A stretch of DNA of 64,000 nt from Halopseudomonas aestusnigri (GTDB lineage: Bacteria; Pseudomonadota; Gammaproteobacteria; Pseudomonadales; Pseudomonadaceae), in contig NZ_NBYK01000006.1 in the NCBI RefSeq assembly GCF_002197985.1, positions 113,106 to 177,105 of the forward strand, in the 5' to 3' direction. Below, piece by piece: positions 13,854-39,709 of the stretch. The notes under the pieces are model-generated. The model did no database searches and was not told where the DNA came from. It saw only the letters and a program-made list of their open reading frames with translations. The position numbers were made by a program, and so were the translations under genes. Within the stretch, counting starts at the first letter, position 1, and each line of letters starts with the position of its first letter.

Positions 13854-15068
13854 CTATCTCTGACTGTCTCCAGCACCCCGACCCTGCAAATAAATGTCGT
13901 CACGCGTCAGCGGCAGGTGATGACCGCCACCAGGCAGCGGCTTGACCGCCAGAATCTGGTGAATGTTCATCCAGTTGCGTGAAAATCCGTAGGCACAGCC
14001 AGCCAGGTAAACACGCCAGATGCGCAACGCGCGCTCATCCACCAGCGCCGCTGCCGCGTCCCTGTTTGCCTCGAGATTCCGGCTCCAGTGCTCCAAGGTA
14101 AGCGCATAATGCATGCGCAGGCTCTCAACATCGACCACCTCAAGCCCCTGATCACTCATCGCTTTAACAGCGGTGGCAAGGTGCGGCAGTTCACCATGGG
14201 GAAACACATAGCGGGCTATAAAGGCACCCGCACCATGGCCAACCGGCCGGCCATCGGTATGCCGCGCGGTGATGCCGTGGTTCATGACCAGGCCACCCGG
14301 TTTGACCTGTTGGTGCAGTATCTGAAAGTACGCCGGCAGATTGGCATGCCCCACATGCTCGAACATGCCGACACTGACGACCTTGTCGTAGTTCTCCTTG
14401 CCCGTCAGATCGCGATAGTCGCGCAGCTCCAATTGAATACGGTCGCCCAGCCCCTGGGCTGCTACCCGCTCGCGGGCGAGTTTCAGTTGCTGCCTGCTGA
14501 GGGTAATGCCGTGTACCTGAACCCCGTATTCTTTCGCCGCGTGACGGGCCAGCCCTCCCCAACCGCAGCCAACATCCAGCAGCCGTTGGCCGCTGCGCAG
14601 GCGGAGCTTGCGACAGAGATGGTCCAGCTTCTGCACCTGAGCCTTGGCCAGGGTATCGTCCGGATGGCGAAAGTAGCCGCAGGAATAGACCATCTCGGGG
14701 TCCAGCCAGAGCGCGTAAAAGTCATTCGACAGGTCGTAGTGATAGGCGATAGCCTCGGCATCGGTCTGCCGGTCGTGGGGATCGTGCGGCGGTGGGCCCT
14801 CATCCTCATCCCGCACCAGCGCCTGGCTCAGCCTGTCAGCAACACCGATGGCATCCAGAACGCTGCCACGAATATCCATGCGCTGCTGAATGAAGGCTTC
14901 ACCGAGTCGGTCCAGACTCGGTGTCTGCAACTCTTCCAGCAAGGCGGGATCGTGAATCTGCAGTTCGACCCGGGGCGAGGGCCCCAGATCCACACTGCCG
15001 CCGCCGGGCAGGGTGAGGCGCAGCGGAAGCTTGAGTGCACCCAACGATGCGGCCAGTTGCGCGAGCAT
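13854..15068 (-). CDS. cfa: Cyclopropane-fatty-acyl-phospholipid synthase
   Basis: A 404-residue SAM-dependent enzyme that adds a methylene bridge across cis double bonds of membrane phospholipid acyl chains. An N-terminal lipid-binding domain (about 1-110) precedes the class I methyltransferase fold. Seen motifs are YHYDLSNDFYALWLD, YSCGYF, LLDVGCGWGGLARHAA (SAM site), GMFEHVGH and FIARYVFPHGELPH. Length is in the family range. It stands between glmU and the PilZ gene, same strand, with a 105-base upstream spacer. Such genes are often stationary-phase (RpoS) controlled; no promoter can be assigned with confidence. Confidence 0.93.
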   Translation of the reverse strand: MLAQLAASLGALKLPLRLTLPGGGSVDLGPSPRVELQIHDPALLEELQTPSLDRLGEAFIQQRMDIRGSVLDAIGVADRLSQALVRDEDEGPPPHDPHDRQTDAEAIAYHYDLSNDFYALWLDPEMVYSCGYFRHPDDTLAKAQVQKLDHLCRKLRLRSGQRLLDVGCGWGGLARHAAKEYGVQVHGITLSRQQLKLARERVAAQGLGDRIQLELRDYRDLTGKENYDKVVSVGMFEHVGHANLPAYFQILHQQVKPGGLVMNHGITARHTDGRPVGHGAGAFIARYVFPHGELPHLATAVKAMSDQGLEVVDVESLRMHYALTLEHWSRNLEANRDAAAALVDERALRIWRVYLAGCAYGFSRNWMNIHQILAVKPLPGGGHHLPLTRDDIYLQGRGAGDSQR

Positions 15069-26493: not shown

Positions 26494-28392
26494 TTACGCC
26501 TCCCGGGCCAGCGAGCTATCGCCGAGGGCGTTGCGTTTTTTCAGATGGATCAGCAGCAGACTGACCGCGGCCGGCGTTACGCCGGGGATACGTGAGGCCT
26601 GCCCCAGGGTCTGCGGGCGCACATCGGCCAGCTTGGCGCGAATTTCATTCGACAGCCCGTTCAGGCTGGCGTAATCCAGGTCTTGCGGCAGGCGAGTCTG
26701 CTCATGCTGACGCAGGCGCTCGATTTCTTCCTGCTGACGCTCGATATACCCGGCGTACTTGGCCTGAATCTCGACCTGCTCGGCGGCATCGACCGGAATA
26801 TCAGTGGCACCGGTCAGTTCGACCAGTGCGGTGTAATCCACTTCCGGGCGGCGCAGCAGATCCAGCAGGCTGTATTCGTGGGTCAGCGGCGTACCGTACT
26901 GCGCACTATAGGCCTTGCCCTGCTCGCTGTTCGGCTGCATCCAGGTGCTGCGCAGACGCTGGGTTTCCTGTTCGATGGCTTCACGCTTGGCGTTGAAGAC
27001 CGCCCAGCGCTCATCATCGACCAGACCCAGCTCGCGGCCCTTTTCGGTCAGGCGCAGGTCGGCGTTATCTTCACGCAGTACCAGACGGTACTCGGCACGG
27101 GAAGTAAACATGCGGTACGGCTCGCGGGTGCCCATGGTGATCAGGTCATCGACCAGCACGCCGATGTAAGCCTCGTCACGGCGCGGGCACCAGGCGTCGC
27201 GCTCCTGTGCACGCAGTGCGGCGTTGAGACCTGCCAGCAAACCCTGAGCACCGGCTTCTTCGTAACCGGTGGTGCCGTTGATCTGACCGGCGAAGAACAG
27301 ACCGTCGATGACCTTGGTTTCCAGCGAGTACTTCAGGTCCTGCGGATTGAAGTAATCGTACTCGATGGCGTAACCGGGGCGCAGGATGTGCGCGTTCTCC
27401 ATACCCTTGATCGAACGGACAATCTGCAGCTGCACATCAAACGGCAACGAGGTCGAGATGCCGTTCGGATACAGCTCGTGGGTAGTCAGGCCTTCCGGCT
27501 CGATGAATACCTGGTGCTGATCCTTGTCGGCAAAGCGATGGATCTTGTCTTCGATCGACGGGCAGTAACGCGGGCCAATGCCTTCGATGACCCCGGTGTA
27601 CATCGGCGAGCGATCCAGGTTCTCGCGGATGATGTCGTGGGTGCGCTCGTTGGTATGGGTAATCCAGCAGTTGACCTGCTCCGGATGCATTGCTGCATTG
27701 CCCATGAACGACATGACCGGAATCGGCGTATCACCTGGCTGTGGCGTCATCTGGCTGAAATCGACACTGCGACCGTCGATGCGCGGCGGGGTGCCGGTTT
27801 TCAGCCGATCCACCCGCAGCGGCAGTTCACGCAGGCGCTGCGCGAGTGCGATGGCGGGCGGATCGCCCGCGCGACCGCCGGAGTAGTTGTCCAGACCGAT
27901 GTGAATCAGGCCACCGAGGAAGGTGCCGGTGGTCAGCACCACGTTGTCAGCCAGAAAACGCAGACCCATCTGGGTAACCACGCCACGAACCTGCTGGTTT
28001 TCGACAATAAGGTCATCGCAGGCCTGCTGGAAGATCCACAGGTTTTCCTGATTCTCCAGGGTATGACGGATGGCTGCCTTGTACAGCACTCGGTCAGCCT
28101 GGGCACGGGTGGCACGCACGGCTGGGCCTTTGCGGCTGTTCAGAACACGAAACTGGATACCGGCCTTGTCGGTAGCCAGTGCCATCGCACCACCCAGCGC
28201 ATCGATCTCCTTGACCAGATGGCTCTTGCCGATCCCGCCAATCGCCGGGTTGCAGCTCATCTGACCGAGGGTTTCGACGTTATGGCTGAGCAGCAGGGTT
28301 TTCACCCCCATACGGGCAGCAGCGAGTGCAGCTTCGGTACCGGCATGGCCACCGCCTACCACTATGACGTCAAAACGGCTGGGGAAATCCAC
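26494..28392 (-). CDS. mnmG: tRNA uridine-5-carboxymethylaminomethyl modification enzyme MnmG
   Basis: A 632-residue FAD protein that, with MnmE, modifies U34 of several tRNAs. FAD-binding motif [17 protein letters not shown] lies near the N-terminus, with the GidA signatures [25 protein letters not shown] and [16 protein letters not shown], and the C-terminal helical MnmE-contact domain. Full length. Its partner mnmE lies 5.3 kb away on the same strand, beyond the cytosine cluster. Its own promoter and an origin-like region lie upstream. Confidence 0.97.
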
Positions 28393-28470: not shown

Positions 28471-28504
28471 CTTTGGCTGAACACTTTTTGTACAACGGGC
28501 CGAG

Positions 28505-28782
28505 TGTGGAAAAACGTCCAGATAGATATAGATAAGAAAAGAAAGATTTATATAAACCTTGAATTAGTTAATGTATATACGTAGCCACTTTTCTGTGAAT
28601 AACTCATATAAATCCTTATAGATCAGAATCTTGCACAACTCAAAAGGTTGTGTGAAAGCGGTCGTTGGATGGGGGTGCAAGCGGTGCGTTGCCTGTGGGT
28701 AACTGAGGTGTTTATCCACAGGGGGATTTCACCTCAGGCTGTCCCCAGGGTTATCGACCGGGTTGGGGCCGGGTTTTCCACA
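28505..28782 (+). other. Second origin-like module with DnaA-box-type sites (mnmG side)
   Basis: This gene-free spacer holds an AT-rich stretch (28521-28620) followed by DnaA-box-like 9-mers: TGTGAATAA (28594-28602), TGTGGGTAA (28694-28702), TTATCCACA (28712-28720, perfect) and TTTTCCACA (28774-28782). TGTGGAAAA at 28505-28513 is a further candidate. Boxes two and three form an inverted repeat (28692-28702 with 28712-28722). The four main boxes have the same spacing as four boxes in oriC upstream of dnaA. It is probably a paralogous origin, comparable to the second autonomously replicating region reported for pseudomonads. Whether it fires is unknown. Confidence 0.7.
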
Positions 28783-28922
28783 GACCTTATACGCCGTTTT
28801 TTCACTTTTACCGCGCTGTTCGGGTGCATGCTTATCGCTATGCTGTGCAGATTGCACATGCATTTGCGCATCGATGCTCGCTCTTCACCGGGAAATCCAT
28901 GGACTGGCACAGCGGTTGCTAA

Positions 28923-28986: not shown

Positions 28987-30270
28987 ATGAACCAGTCAGA
29001 GCGCACCACGGACCCCGATTACCCGTTGAGTCCGGTACCGGAAACCGCCCGCAAGAGCATGTGGTCGATGAGTTTTGTGCTGCTGGGCTTTACCTTCTTC
29101 AGTGCCACCATGTGGGCAGGTGGCAGTGTTGGCGCTGCCTTTGATTTTTCTACGACTCTGTGGGTTCTGTTAATTGGCAACCTGCTGCTCGGCGCCTATG
29201 CAGCCATTCTGGGCTATATTGCCGCGCGCTCGGGGCTGAATACGGCGTTGATGAGCCGCTACGCCTTCGGTGAGATCGGCAGCAAGCTGTCCGACTTCAT
29301 TCTCGGCTTTACCCAGATCGGCTGGTACGCCTGGGGTACGGCAACCATGGCGCTGTTGTTGGTGAAAATGACCGGCCTGCCCGATAGCCTGACGCTGCCG
29401 CTGATGGTGGTGTTCGGGTTCGGTTTTTGTATCAGTGCCTTCGTTGGCTACCGAGGTCTGGATCTGCTGTCACGCTTTGCCGTACCTGCGATGCTGATTC
29501 TGATCGCGGTGAGCCTCGGGATCGCCACCAAAGACGCCGGTGGCCTGTCCGGTCTGAGCGCCATCGCACCCAGTGCGGAGCTCAGTGTGGCTGCAGCCAT
29601 CACCATGGTGTTCGGGACCTTTGTCAGTGGCGGTACCCAGGCCACCAACTGGACCCGTTTTGCCAAGTCCGGCAAGGCAGCCGTCATCGCGACCCTGGCG
29701 GCGTTCTTTATCGGTAACGGGCTGATGACGCTGGTGGGCGCCTTCGGCGCGCTGGTCTATCAACAGGCCGACATCGTCGACATTCTGGTGGCACAAGGGC
29801 TGGCGACGCTGGGCGTGCTGATGCTGTTCCTCAATCTCTGGACCACCCAGGACAACACCGTCTACAACTTTGCCGTGGCCGGCTGCAACCTGCTGCGCAC
29901 CGAGCGTCGCCGGACCATCACCGTGATCGGCGCGGCAATTGGCACGCTGCTGGCGGTACTGGGTATGTATGAGTGGCTGATCCCGTTCCTGATTCTGCTC
30001 GGCACCTTTATCCCGCCGGTCGGTGGCGTGATCATGGCCAACTATTTTGTGACCTGGCGCGGCCGCTACGCTGATCTGGGTTCCACTGCCCTGCCCGCGT
30101 TCAATGTGATCGGTCTGATAGCCTACGCACTGGGTTCGCTGGTGGCCTATACCTCCAACTGGATTGCGCCGGTGGTTGGCGTACTGGTCGCTGCCGCGTC
30201 CTACGCCTTGTTGGCCCTGCTGGTCAGTGCGGTCAAGGAGCGCCGCGCGGCGCTGATGAGCAACCTGTGA
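28987..30270 (+). CDS. codB: Cytosine permease CodB (NCS1 family)
   Basis: A 427-residue inner-membrane transporter with about 12 hydrophobic helices. NCS1 features include the opening PDYPLSPVPETARKSMWSM, TFVSGGTQATNWTRFAKSG and LNLWTTQDNTVYNFAVA, close to the CodB pattern. It brings cytosine into the cell for the deaminase encoded two genes later. ATG 28987 is used because GGAG lies about eight bases upstream and the protein begins normally; the frame runs far upstream through the origin-like spacer. It overlaps the regulator gene by four bases. Confidence 0.9.
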   Translation: MNQSERTTDPDYPLSPVPETARKSMWSMSFVLLGFTFFSATMWAGGSVGAAFDFSTTLWVLLIGNLLLGAYAAILGYIAARSGLNTALMSRYAFGEIGSKLSDFILGFTQIGWYAWGTATMALLLVKMTGLPDSLTLPLMVVFGFGFCISAFVGYRGLDLLSRFAVPAMLILIAVSLGIATKDAGGLSGLSAIAPSAELSVAAAITMVFGTFVSGGTQATNWTRFAKSGKAAVIATLAAFFIGNGLMTLVGAFGALVYQQADIVDILVAQGLATLGVLMLFLNLWTTQDNTVYNFAVAGCNLLRTERRRTITVIGAAIGTLLAVLGMYEWLIPFLILLGTFIPPVGGVIMANYFVTWRGRYADLGSTALPAFNVIGLIAYALGSLVAYTSNWIAPVVGVLVAAASYALLALLVSAVKERRAALMSNL

Positions 30271-31022
30271 GTCCATTGCTGCGCACCGAGGATGTCCCGT
30301 TGTTACCCGGGCTTGGGGCTATTCGTCTGCGTGCCGGTCACGCCGGTGCGCAGCGTGTTGTCCGCTGGCCGTATGTCGCGGAAAACCGTTCCTTTACGCC
30401 GTGGATCAAGGGTGGAGAGCTGGTGTTCATCACCGGCATTGGTCGCCACCACAGCGTCGATAACCTGTTTGAGCTGCTTTACGAGGGGGTGGCGGCCAAG
30501 GTTGCCGGCCTGGTGATTCTGACCGGTGATGCCTACATCGGTCGCTTGCCTGCGGCCCTTCTGAAGTTGGCAGATCAGCAGCAGTTGCCATTGCTTGAGC
30601 AGCCGTATTCGCTGCCGATGGTGACGGTGACCGAGGTCATCGGACGGGCCATTGTGCAACGTGAACAGCTGGCCTGGCGGGATGCTGAAAGCCGAGCGGG
30701 CAGTTTGCTGGAGAAGCTGCAGCTACGCATTGGCGATGCGGGCGCGCGCGCCGACTTCGTCGCCCCCTGGTTTGCCGAACATCAGACCTTGCTACAGCAC
30801 CTGGCGCCGACTATCGATGCCTGGCTGCGACATGGCGGCAATATCAGCGCGGCGGCCGCTGCACTGGGCAGCCATCGCAACTCGGTGCGCAACCGCCTCG
30901 ATCGTCTGTTCCGTGAGACCGGGCTGGACCCGGCCAAGCCGACAGACATCTACAACCTGATTCTGGCTCATCTGCTGATGCACGAGCCCACTATGACACC
31001 CGAATGTGGAGATACCCCATGA
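30267..31022 (+). CDS. PucR-type transcriptional regulator of the cytosine cluster
   Basis: A 251-residue protein. Residues 1-120 match a PucR N-terminal ligand domain (RTEDVPLLPGLGAIRLRAG, ENRSFTPWIKGGELVFITG). The C-terminal 60 residues are a PucR-type helix-turn-helix (HGGNISAAAAALGSHRNSVRNRLDRL). The long middle domain of larger family members is missing. GTG 30267 overlaps the codB stop (GTGA), and the stop overlaps codA (ATGA), so all three are translationally coupled. PucR proteins often sense purine or pyrimidine breakdown compounds, so control of codBA by cytosine or a product is a fair inference. Confidence 0.85.
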   Translation: MSPLLRTEDVPLLPGLGAIRLRAGHAGAQRVVRWPYVAENRSFTPWIKGGELVFITGIGRHHSVDNLFELLYEGVAAKVAGLVILTGDAYIGRLPAALLKLADQQQLPLLEQPYSLPMVTVTEVIGRAIVQREQLAWRDAESRAGSLLEKLQLRIGDAGARADFVAPWFAEHQTLLQHLAPTIDAWLRHGGNISAAAAALGSHRNSVRNRLDRLFRETGLDPAKPTDIYNLILAHLLMHEPTMTPECGDTP

Positions 31023-32275
31023 CCCAGACCCTGTCTGCCATCGTTAATGCTCGCCTGCCTGGTGAAACCGGCCTGTATCGGGTCGAGATCAGCGCAGGGC
31101 GGTTCAGCCGGATCGAGCCCCAGAGCGCGGATGTGGTCGCTGCCGCCGATGAACTCGATGCCGGCGGCAACCTGCTGCTGCCGCCCTTTGTCGAGCCGCA
31201 CATTCACCTGGATGCTGCGCTCACCGCCGGCCAGCCGCGCTGGAACCAGAGCGGTACCCTGTTCGAAGGTATCGAGTGCTGGGGCGAGCGCAAGGCGATG
31301 CTCAGCCGCGACGACGTCATCAGCCGTGCCGAGCAGACGCTGAAGCTGTTTGCCGCCCACGGCATTCAGTACGTGCGTACCCACGTTGATGTCACCGATC
31401 CGCAGCTGACCGCGCTGCGGGCGATGGTTGAAGTACGTGACCGAGTGCGGGAACTTGTTGATCTGCAGATTGTTGCCTTCCCGCAGGAGGGCATTCTGTC
31501 CTTCCCGGGCGGTAAGGAGCTAATGAGTGACGCGGTGACGGTGGGTGCCGATGTGATTGGCGGTATCCCGCATTTTGAGTTCACTCGCGATTACGGCGTG
31601 GAGTCGGTCAAGCTGCTGATGGATCTGGCCGAAGCCAATGATTGCCTGGTGGACGTGCACTGCGACGAGATTGACGATCCGCAGTCGCGCTTCCTCGAAG
31701 TGCTCGCCGCCGAGGCCCTGAGTCGCGATTACGGCAGCCGGGTTACCGCCAGCCACACCTGTGCCATGCACTCCTACGAAGACGCCTACTGCAGCCGGCT
31801 GTTCCGCCTGCTCGGCAAGTCGGGCCTGCGCTTTGTCGCGCTGCCGACCGAGAACCTGCACCTGCAGGGCCGATTTGATGGGTATCCAAAACGCCGTGGC
31901 ATCACCCGGGTGCCCGAATTGCTGGATGCCGGTCTCAAGGTCTGTTTTGGTCAGGATTCGATCCGTGACCCCTGGTATCCGATGGGCAACGGTAATCTGC
32001 TGCGCACGCTGGATGTCGGCCTGCATGCCTGCCACATGCTGGGTATGGAGCGGATAGAAACCGCGCTGGAAATCGTTACCGATAACGGCGCTGCGGCGCT
32101 CAATCTTGCCGAGTACGGCATCGCGGTCGGCAACCCCGCACGCTGCATGGTGCTCAACGGCACAACGCCGTATGAGGTACTGCTGAATCAGAGCCCGGTT
32201 CTTGCATCGGTGCGCGATGGTCGCTGCCTGGTGCAGCGTGCCGCTCCGGTCCACGAGGTGGCTGGCTGGAGCTGA
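31019..32275 (+). CDS. codA: Cytosine deaminase CodA
   Basis: A 418-residue amidohydrolase converting cytosine to uracil and ammonia. The metal and catalytic residues fall at the numbering I recall for the E. coli enzyme: His61 and His63 (PHIHLD), His214 and Glu217 (HCDEIDD), Asp313 (GQDSIRDPWYPMGNGN). HTCAMHSY holds the further conserved His. Start ATG 31019 overlaps the regulator's stop by four bases. With CodB it forms a cytosine uptake and deamination route feeding pyrimidine salvage. Confidence 0.94.
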   Translation: MTQTLSAIVNARLPGETGLYRVEISAGRFSRIEPQSADVVAAADELDAGGNLLLPPFVEPHIHLDAALTAGQPRWNQSGTLFEGIECWGERKAMLSRDDVISRAEQTLKLFAAHGIQYVRTHVDVTDPQLTALRAMVEVRDRVRELVDLQIVAFPQEGILSFPGGKELMSDAVTVGADVIGGIPHFEFTRDYGVESVKLLMDLAEANDCLVDVHCDEIDDPQSRFLEVLAAEALSRDYGSRVTASHTCAMHSYEDAYCSRLFRLLGKSGLRFVALPTENLHLQGRFDGYPKRRGITRVPELLDAGLKVCFGQDSIRDPWYPMGNGNLLRTLDVGLHACHMLGMERIETALEIVTDNGAAALNLAEYGIAVGNPARCMVLNGTTPYEVLLNQSPVLASVRDGRCLVQRAAPVHEVAGWS

Positions 32276-32331
32276 TAACGCACGCCTCTATGCTAAGGTG
32301 ACCGGCTGGTTCTGCTCTATCGAGGCGAGTT

Positions 32332-33699
32332 GTGTCACCTGCCAGCAACGACGGATTACCCATGCCCGCACGACTCGGCGCGATCATTGCGATTGCGCTG
32401 GGCGTGACCATGGCCGTGCTGGACGGCATGATTGCCAATGTCGCATTGCCCACCATCGCCAATGATCTGGGCACCAGTGCGGCCAACTCGATCTGGGTGG
32501 TCAACGCCTACCAGCTGGTGATAGCGGTCAGCTTGCTGCCTCTGGCTTCGCTTGGCGACCTGTGGAGCTACCGGCGTATCTATCTGATCGGGCTGGCGGT
32601 GTTTTCTGCCATGTCGATAGTCTGCGCCCTGAGTGATTCATTGTTGCAGCTGACCCTTGCGCGCATGCTGCAGGGGCTGGGCGCTGCAGCGGTGATGAGC
32701 GTCAACGGCGCCCTGACCCGACTGATTTATCCCCGCGCACGCCTGGCCCGCGGTGTGGCGCTCAATACCCTGATCGTCTCGGTGGCCGCCGCTGCCGGCC
32801 CCAGCGTGGCAGCAGTCATTTTGTCGCTCGCCAGTTGGCCCTGGCTGTTTGCGGTCAGCGCCCCCGTCGGCCTGCTGGCCCTGCTGATGGGCTGGAAGTT
32901 TCTGCCCGCCAATGAAGGTGTACCTAGCCTGCGCTTTGATCTGCCAAGCGCAGTGCTTAATGTACTTACGCTGGGTTGCTTCTTTATGGCTGTCACCGGT
33001 GTAGCCCAGGGCCACGCCGGCTGGTGGCTGCTCGGGCCATTGTTGATTGGCGGCCCGCTGGGTTGGCTGTTCGTGCGCCGACAGCTGAGCCGTAGCATGC
33101 CGTTGCTGCCGGTGGATCTGCTGCGCATTCCCATTTTTGCCCTGTCGATCGGCAGTTCGATCACCGCGTTCGCCGGGCAGATGCTGGCGATGGTCTCCAT
33201 CCCCTTCTACTTCCAGCAGCAGCTTGGACTCAATGCCATGCAAACCGGTTTGCTGATGACGCCCTGGCCGCTGGCGACCATGGTTAGCGCGCCCCTGGCC
33301 GGGCGGCTGCTGGAGCGCTTTCACGCGGGCTTGCTGGGTGGTATTGGCATGCTGCTGTTCGCCGGAGGTCTTTGGGGCTTGGCAGCATTGCCGGACAAGC
33401 CGGGAACTGGCGCAATACTCGGCTGGATGGTGCTGTGCGGCGCCGGGTTCGGGCTGTTCCAGTCGCCCAACAATCACACCATCATTACCGCTGCCCCCTT
33501 GCACCGCAGTGGCGGCGCCAGTGGCATGCTGAGCACCGCCAGGCTGGTTGGCCAGACCAGCGGTGCGGCGCTGGTGGCGTTGATGTTCAACCTGTTCGTC
33601 GACAATGGCACCCATGCCGCGTTGATCGCCGCCGGTTGCTTTGCCTGCCTTGCAGCGGCTGTCAGTACCTTGCGGCTAAGCCAGCCGCGCTCGGGATAA
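32332..33699 (+). CDS. MFS transporter, DHA2 (EmrB/QacA)-like
   Basis: A 455-residue membrane protein with many hydrophobic helices. It carries MFS motifs: LDGMIANVALPTIANDLG (motif D-like for the 14-helix drug family), GDLWSYRRIYLIG (motif A) and LARMLQGLGAAAVMS (motif B). The substrate is unknown; multidrug or metabolite export is usual for the family. GTG 32332 has a GAGGCGAG site five bases upstream; ATG 32362 is a possible alternative. It follows codA by 56 bases and converges on mnmE, three bases between the stops. Confidence 0.82.
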   Translation: MSPASNDGLPMPARLGAIIAIALGVTMAVLDGMIANVALPTIANDLGTSAANSIWVVNAYQLVIAVSLLPLASLGDLWSYRRIYLIGLAVFSAMSIVCALSDSLLQLTLARMLQGLGAAAVMSVNGALTRLIYPRARLARGVALNTLIVSVAAAAGPSVAAVILSLASWPWLFAVSAPVGLLALLMGWKFLPANEGVPSLRFDLPSAVLNVLTLGCFFMAVTGVAQGHAGWWLLGPLLIGGPLGWLFVRRQLSRSMPLLPVDLLRIPIFALSIGSSITAFAGQMLAMVSIPFYFQQQLGLNAMQTGLLMTPWPLATMVSAPLAGRLLERFHAGLLGGIGMLLFAGGLWGLAALPDKPGTGAILGWMVLCGAGFGLFQSPNNHTIITAAPLHRSGGASGMLSTARLVGQTSGAALVALMFNLFVDNGTHAALIAAGCFACLAAAVSTLRLSQPRSG

Positions 33700-37730: not shown

Positions 37731-38110
37731 GAATAGATAAAAATATAAGAAATGAGATTGTTTAAGAGATTAAAGATATAGCTATGTATAGGCGACCACA
37801 TTTCTGTGGGTAACCTGAATTTTCCCATATAGCTCAATGGGTTGCCGTAAGCATAAGGCTGTTGACATCCGGTTGCCCGGACTATCTGACTCCTGTGCTC
37901 CACCTGTGGATAACCGGGCGGGATATCCACAGGTGGAGTTATCCCCATTGATCGTGCTCTGTTGCCAACAATGTTGAGGCTGCCTTGTCCACAGCTTCTA
38001 CGGCGCCCTGATTTCGCGGGTGTTACCGTTTTTTCATCGTTTCTGCTGCACGTCGAGGGTCGGCGTTGGCGATACTTTTTTAGCCCGGCTTCGGTCACGC
38101 GTGTGGATAA
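37731..38110 (+). other. oriC: Chromosomal replication origin oriC (rpmH-dnaA spacer)
   Basis: The 601-base spacer before dnaA has an AT-rich unwinding-type stretch (37731-37790) and DnaA boxes: TGTGGGTAA (37805-37813), TGTGGATAA (37905-37913, perfect), ATATCCACA (37923-37931), TTATCCCCA (37939-37947), TTGTCCACA (37985-37993) and TGTGGATAA (38102-38110, perfect). The second and third lie in a 14-base perfect inverted repeat (37899-37912 and 37924-37937). The place between rpmH and dnaA is that of known Pseudomonas origins. From 38111 to 38227 lies the dnaA leader, with a small hairpin at 38149-38166. Confidence 0.92.
37899..37937. repeat. 14-bp perfect inverted repeat of DnaA boxes in oriC
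   Basis: TCCACCTGTGGATA (37899-37912) and TATCCACAGGTGGA (37924-37937) are exact reverse complements, 11 bases apart. Each arm contains a DnaA box core. The mnmG-side module has a similar but shorter pair at 28692-28722. Confidence 0.9.
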
Positions 38111-38227: not shown

Positions 38228-39709
38228 GTGTCTGTTGCACTTTGGCAGCAATGCATCGATTTTTTGCGTGATGAGCTACCATCCCAACAGTTCAATACCT
38301 GGATTCGCCCGTTGCAGGTCGATGGCGACCAGGCGGAGATCCGTCTGTATGCACCCAACCGGTTCGTGCTGGACTGGGTCAATGACAAGTACCTCAATCG
38401 CATCCAGGAGTTGATGGACGATTTGTCTCAGGGGCAGGCGCCGATGGTGTCGCTGCTGATTGGCAGTCGTCGTACTGCTGCCGCGCCGGTCTCCGCGCCT
38501 GCGCCGCGACCGCTGCAGTCAGCGACAGCTGCCCCTGCACCGATTCCGGTAGCTGCTCCGGTTACGCCGGTGGTGGTCGAGTCTCAGCCGCAACCGCTGG
38601 TTGATCACAGCGGTACTGCCGAGGCAGCCGCTGAACTGGCCGGTAATTCTGCAGATCAGCCGCAGGCGCCGCCGACCTTGATCAAGCACACCAGTCTGCT
38701 TAACCGCAGTTTTACCTTCGAGAACTTCGTCGAGGGCAAGTCTAACCAGCTTGCCCGCGCTGCAGCCTGGCAGGTTGCGGACAATCCCAAGCATGGCTAT
38801 AACCCGCTGTTCCTTTATGGGGGCGTTGGCCTGGGCAAGACCCACTTGATGCACGCGGTTGGTAACCATCTGCTGAAGAAGAATCCGGCTGCCCGGATCG
38901 TGTATCTGCATTCCGAGCGTTTCGTCGCCGATATGGTCAAGGCGCTGCAAATGAACGCCATCAACGACTTCAAGCGTTATTACCGTTCGGTCGATGCGCT
39001 GTTGATTGACGATATTCAGTTCTTTGCCAAGAAAGAGCGCTCGCAGGAAGAGTTCTTCCACACCTTCAACGCGCTGCTTGAAGGCGGGCAGCAGGTCATT
39101 CTCACCAGTGACCGGTACCCCAAGGAAATTGACGGCTTGGAAGAGCGGCTCAAGTCTCGTTTTGGTTGGGGCCTGACCGTCGCTGTCGAGCCGCCCGAGC
39201 TGGAAACCCGCGTTGCCATTCTGATGAAGAAGGCCGAGCAGTCCCGGGTTGATCTGCCTCACGATGCGGCTTTCTTTATTGCCCAGCGTATTCGCTCCAA
39301 CGTCCGCGAACTGGAAGGTGCACTCAAGCGGGTCATCGCCAGTGCGCATTTTATGGGACGCGACATCACCATTGAGCTGATTCGTGAGTCGCTCAAGGAC
39401 CTGCTCGCCTTGCAGGACAAGTTGGTGAGTATCGATAATATTCAGCGCACCGTCGCCGAGTACTACAAGATCAAGGTAGCCGACGTCCTGTCCAAACGTC
39501 GCTCCCGCTCCGTTGCACGGCCCCGTCAGGTTGCCATGGCCCTGGCCAAGGAGTTGACCAACCACAGCCTTCCCGAGATTGGCGATGCGTTTGGTGGACG
39601 GGATCACACAACGGTATTGCATGCCACGCGCAAGATTGCCGAGTTGCGCGAGACTGATGCGGATATCCGCGAGGACTACAAGAATCTGTTGAGGACGCTG
39701 ACGACCTGA
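38228..39709 (+). CDS. dnaA: Chromosomal replication initiator DnaA
   Basis: A 493-residue AAA+ initiator. Domain I (about 1-85) is followed by a long Pro/Ala-rich linker (about 80-155), then the AAA+ core with GGVGLGKT at 198-205 and [13 protein letters not shown], and domain IV with [19 protein letters not shown] and [12 protein letters not shown], which reads DnaA boxes. The start is GTG 38228, giving the usual [17 protein letters not shown]. DnaA boxes in front of it suggest autoregulation. Confidence 0.98.

Follow-up and report, generated by a model that had tools for sequence, protein, structure and literature searches.

The usual description of a bacterial chromosome gives it a single replication origin. 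The stretch of Halopseudomonas aestusnigri DNA analysed here (64,000 nt of NZ_NBYK01000006.1, hereafter the window; coordinates count from its start) contains two clusters of DnaA boxes with the same spacing, one upstream of mnmG (the mnmG-side module, M) and one in the spacer between rpmH and dnaA (the dnaA-side module, D). This raises the question of what M is, how it is related to D, and which of the two is used. We consider it very likely that positions 28519-28782 are a complete DnaA-dependent origin module of the oriC2 type, the counterpart of E. coli oriC, and that positions 37733-37993 are its homologue, probably by duplication.

Anatomy of the two modules

The mnmG-side module starts with an AT-rich stretch (28519-28589), a candidate DNA unwinding element that lies beside box 1 on the mnmG-facing side of the module, as in oriC of the E. 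coli type. The box scan then gave box 1, the equivalent of R1 (TTATTCACA, 28594-28602, minus strand), box 2 (TTACCCACA, 28694-28702, minus strand) and box 3 (a perfect TTATCCACA, 28712-28720, plus strand), which are the left and right arms of an inverted pair, and box 4, the equivalent of R4 (TTTTCCACA, 28774-28782, plus strand), 180 bp from box 1. An IHF-like site (GATCAGAATCTTG, 28621-28633, plus strand) lies at +27 from box 1 and matches WATCARNNNNTTR at 12 of 13 positions. An extra box at 28505 (minus strand) is outside this four-box geometry.

The dnaA-side module repeats this order. Its AT-rich stretch (37733-37796) is followed by box 1 (TTACCCACA, 37805-37813, minus strand), an IHF-like site at +27 (37832-37844, plus strand, 11 of 13 positions), box 2 (TTATCCACA, 37905-37913, minus strand), box 3 (ATATCCACA, 37923-37931, plus strand) and box 4 (TTGTCCACA, 37985-37993, plus strand). 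Two further boxes on this side are outside the geometry: a weak fifth one at +134 (TTATCCCCA, 37939-37947, plus strand), which in the genus is kept only at D, and an isolated perfect box (38102-38110, minus strand) by the start of dnaA (38228-39709, plus strand), whose role is probably dnaA autoregulation. Between M and mnmE, positions 28987-33699 carry plus-strand genes for a cytosine/purine permease, a PucR-type regulator, an amidohydrolase and an MFS transporter. In other members of the genus this insert is absent or different, and mnmG and dnaA lie between about 4.9 and 12.7 kb apart.

The first-pass annotation had reported four boxes at each locus with equal offsets, and this is what we found: their positions and orientations are as claimed, the offsets are 100, 18 and 62 at both loci, and boxes 2 and 3 form an inverted pair, minus then plus, in each module. 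The offset of the IHF-like site is equal as well. A scan that allowed up to one mismatch counted 27 boxes in the window, where shuffles gave 6.25 (sd 2.6). A search of the whole 3.83-Mb genome for the first three boxes at fixed spacing gave two hits, M and D, and none for the control pattern, in which the three boxes are read backwards. It had also been asked whether an alignment would rise above random level beyond the boxes. It does: once the boxes are removed, the ungapped identity between the modules is 47% in register, against a mean of 26.9% (sd 4.0) over 121 registers out of register, of which the next best reaches 35%. One proposed shared feature, the motif AACGTCC, did not hold up. 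It occurs eight times in the window (6.1 expected), and at the loci themselves it is found in one of 24 genus members on the mnmG side, in one of 23 on the dnaA side, and in none of 47 other Pseudomonadaceae on either side. We regard its presence at both loci as a coincidence, since its count is near expectation and it is present there in the window genome only.

Conservation and ancestry

We scored the M and D regions of relatives for R1, the IHF-like site, the inverted pair and R4. Requiring an IHF score of 9 or more before a module was called present gave too few Pseudomonadaceae (42 of 71), as this site is weak in Pseudomonas, and the calls were therefore based on a score for the complete geometry. 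With this score, modules of Pseudomonadaceae mostly reach 10-18, while the maximum among shuffled controls (n = 352) is -1. Both modules are present in 70 of the 71 Pseudomonadaceae genomes, with spacings of 98-101/16-18/178-182 (boxes 1-2/2-3/1-4). The presence of a phase-locked pair in nearly all of these genomes allows direct tests of the reason for keeping two modules and of the way in which initiation is confined to one of them. The exact spacing match that had stood out in the window is thus real, but it is not special to this genome, being kept family-wide with a small wobble. Within the window's genus, 18 of 24 genomes have the spacing 100/18/180 at M and D alike; in other genera, 28 of 46 have 99/18/179 at both. 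The commonest change is of one base between boxes 1 and 2, and the length from box 2 to box 4 is nearly constant.

The single elements of the modules are also kept. On the mnmG side, a box with at most two mismatches stands at the position of box 1 in all 71 Pseudomonadaceae sequences scored, and boxes 2 and 3 each have at most one mismatch in 24 of 24 genus members. The 30-bp bin from -60 to -30 relative to box 1 has a genus mean of 83% AT at M and 82% at D. The mean IHF score at +27 in the genus is 11.5 of 13 at M, compared with 7.6 averaged over offsets, and 9.7 at D. In other genera of the family, M and D alike have only a weak match at +27 even though the box spacing is kept, and the best mean IHF score is at +44. 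Two genomes depart from the common pattern. In one member of the window's genus (G018, L134, about 13910-14110), boxes 2-4 of the dnaA-side module are kept, box 1 is degenerate (TGTGCATGG) and the mnmG-side module is intact, which makes this genome a natural single-origin candidate. In a genus of Pseudomonadaceae with small genomes (G053 C1 404880, L003), dnaA and the box pattern are separated by about 24 kb, and the score of the region upstream of dnaA is negative.

Origins generally attract DnaA-box clusters, yet it is scarcely credible that unrelated clusters reached this spacing by chance or convergence: the pattern has just these two occurrences in the window genome, the modules are similar in register, their scores are far above those of shuffles, and the family-wide conservation at both loci rules such an origin of the spacing out. 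It is also improbable that recent gene conversion, and not selection on phasing, keeps M and D alike. In the other genera, similarity between M and D is slightly higher within genomes than across genomes (0.410 vs 0.388, 0 of 2000 permutations), as conversion would predict, but shared base composition could yield the same excess, which in the window's genus is negligible (0.426 vs 0.420, permutation 0.094). The total similarity of M and D, only about 42%, is too low for a recent event. By this comparison of similarities within and across genomes, we rejected gene conversion between the modules as anything more than a weak effect. Both modules are kept by selection, and the proposal that box phasing is under selection in two homologous modules of the origin type agrees with the spacings kept throughout the family.

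The geometry is shared with E. coli. In K-12, R1 (minus strand) and R4 (plus strand) of oriC are 180 bp apart, exactly as in M, and the IHF-like site (11 of 13 positions there, 12 of 13 in M) is at +27 from R1 in both. The order of the elements, i.e. AT-rich element, R1, IHF-like site and R4, is common to the two, both lie between mnmG and the gene that follows, and mnmG (gidA; 26494-28392, minus strand) flanks M on the same side and in the same orientation as it flanks E. coli oriC. The dnaA-side module has the same R1-R4 and IHF geometry, but its neighbouring gene differs. The middle of the module is also different: E. coli has R5M (+55), R2 (+106) and R3 (+141), whereas M has the inverted pair at +100/+118. 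Moreover, GATC sites are dense in E. coli oriC (Dam/SeqA control), while by eye M has only one or two of them in 28500-28790. E. coli oriC and both pseudomonad origins have thus retained a common outer R1-IHF-R4 geometry while the middle boxes have changed, which allows the rigid part of the initiation machine to be told from the flexible part.

The outgroups bear on which module is older. Vibrio, Photobacterium, Shewanella and Enterobacterales have the R1-IHF-R4 arrangement on the mnmG side, with R1 and R4 177-180 bp apart, and no dnaA-side module was found in them where dnaA was in view. In a tree of MnmE and YidC from 86 genomes, the Pseudomonadaceae form one fully supported clade in which nearly all members have both modules. 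The outgroups have M only, and D-side modules are also found in several other lineages of Pseudomonadales. The mnmG-side module agrees with E. coli oriC in where it lies, in the distance from R1 to R4 and in the offset of the IHF-like site, and the outgroups have only M; it is therefore probably ancestral and the dnaA-side one derived. The first-pass annotation was right insofar as the modules are homologous, but the direction of duplication that it implied is probably reversed. The dnaA-side module probably arose when the unit was duplicated into the rpmH-dnaA spacer, on the stem of the Pseudomonadaceae or earlier. The gain may predate this stem, since both modules score in L195, which belongs to the sister group. 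Other families of Pseudomonadales are patchy, with neither module called by the geometry score in 25 of 54 genomes, and D-only calls at two loci (L043 and L102) are weak and may be due to chance. With such patchy calls and D modules in several separate lineages, D may have been gained once or several times. In the MAG DTU037 (L041, about 3600), another complete module, whose IHF-like site matches at 13 of 13 positions, lies beside the place expected for rpmH; dnaA was not found in this locus.

Relation to the second origin of Pseudomonas aeruginosa

Yee and Smith are said to have described autonomously replicating elements of P. aeruginosa in 1990, and oriC1 and oriC2 of this species were reportedly treated by Jiang et al. 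in 2006. We take the second of these elements to be the one upstream of gidA/mnmG, and the essential one is presumably that on the dnaA side. According to the work summarised in PMC4403523 and also cited in PMC4285127, P. aeruginosa has two autonomously replicating origin elements, which form pre-priming complexes in vitro and only one of which is essential. This bears out the remark in the first-pass annotation that two such regions have been reported in pseudomonads. The window likewise has two DnaA-box origin elements on one pseudomonad chromosome, but they are about 9.2 kb apart, unlike those of P. aeruginosa, because of the inserted gene block. The rpmH-dnaA oriC of Pseudomonas shares the four-box geometry and the AT-rich element with M, and differs from it in its locus, in the weak extra box at +134 and, in the window's genus, in the weaker IHF-like site.

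The mnmG-side module is very likely a second origin of the oriC2 type, which has already been described, and no new class. It consists of a DnaA-box cluster with an AT-rich flank upstream of mnmG, it exists besides the one in the rpmH-dnaA spacer, and it is found family-wide. Almost all of the Pseudomonadaceae scored carry it, so that it is no peculiarity of a single genome but belongs to a type of second origin that is already known. Several observations nevertheless count against this reading. At +27, Pseudomonas outside the window's genus has a weak IHF-like site, the inverted pair at +100/+118 is unlike the R5M/R2/R3 arrangement of E. coli, and calls in other families of Pseudomonadales are patchy, with D present in several lineages. 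The gammaBOriS resource lists R1, R4, IHF and DnaA-trio motifs for gammaproteobacterial origins (PMC7174414), and we found no statement on paired modules in it. In the literature within our partial reach, we found neither the exact geometry common to both pseudomonad modules and E. coli oriC, nor a statement that phasing and IHF offset are exactly alike in the two modules and stay so across 70 genomes. Beyond the known kind, three points are of interest: the pair is phase-locked throughout the family, M is probably the ancestral copy, and there is a hint that M is the one in use here.

Function and use of the modules

We infer the binding of DnaA and IHF, the unwinding and the firing of the modules by analogy with E. 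coli. DnaA would occupy boxes 1-4, and a bend made by IHF would separate box 1 from the inverted boxes 2 and 3. The fixed distances may put the DnaA complexes at box 1 and at boxes 2/3/4 in register, with the bend and the complexes on one face of the helix; that the rare one-base changes occur on the side of the bend fits this proposal. A DnaA filament would grow from box 1 leftward into the AT-rich stretch and open it, after which DnaB would be loaded. In each cycle, one module probably dominates and the other is a reserve or a DnaA-binding regulator.

We used GC skew to ask which module is used, comparing a single switch at M with one at D over 64-140 kb in 12 genomes of the window's genus. 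The switch at M gives the better fit in all 12 genomes, and a freely placed change-point is nearer M than D in 11 of them. In the window, the change-point is at 26.5-27.1 kb, near the mnmG-side module and away from the dnaA-side origin. The genes inserted between the modules show a skew that depends on their strand: plus-strand genes look like leading-strand genes (10 gene clusters, mean coding-strand skew +0.015), while minus-strand genes are nearer to lagging-strand ones (5 clusters, -0.077). For comparison, the mean coding-strand skews of the arms are roughly -0.04 to +0.04 for leading genes and -0.06 to -0.15 for lagging genes.

These patterns bear on the reading that M no longer initiates and is kept as a site that titrates DnaA or regulates, either like datA/DARS or by controlling transcription of mnmG. 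Its place directly upstream of mnmG is consistent with this, as is the finding, summarised in PMC4403523, that P. aeruginosa requires just one of its two origins; the latter also weighs against M as an oriC2-type origin, since one of the two may be idle in the laboratory. We find such a loss of function rather unlikely. Titration needs boxes, and not the AT-rich flank, the IHF-like site and the fixed phasing, all of which are kept in the genus. A datA/DARS-type site has DnaA boxes and an IHF site without an unwinding element, whereas M has a conserved AT-rich flank at box 1. Furthermore, the GC skew switches near M and not near D.

The skew hints instead that initiation in the window's genus may take place mainly at the mnmG copy. 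That M is the main working origin there and D the reserve seems to us a serious possibility, if somewhat short of an even chance. It is favoured by the fit of the switch and the place of the change-point, by the strand-dependent skew of the inserted genes, and by the one genus member in which box 1 is degenerate on the dnaA side only. However, the gene-level likelihood ratios for use of M versus D are small (0.2-5.3), and the skew signal is partly gene-specific, because mnmE and yidC have an intrinsic negative coding-strand skew whatever the module state of the genome, and because the middle segment has a positive skew also in two genomes of Pseudomonas whose arms show no clear skew at the locus. 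The skew of mnmE and yidC was also tried as a test of origin use, and was discarded when the control failed, M-only and D-only genomes giving similar skews. With a little more reserve still, we suggest that the genus may use M mainly and keep D as a derived reserve, in a family with two phase-locked and potentially competing origins between which genera may have chosen differently.
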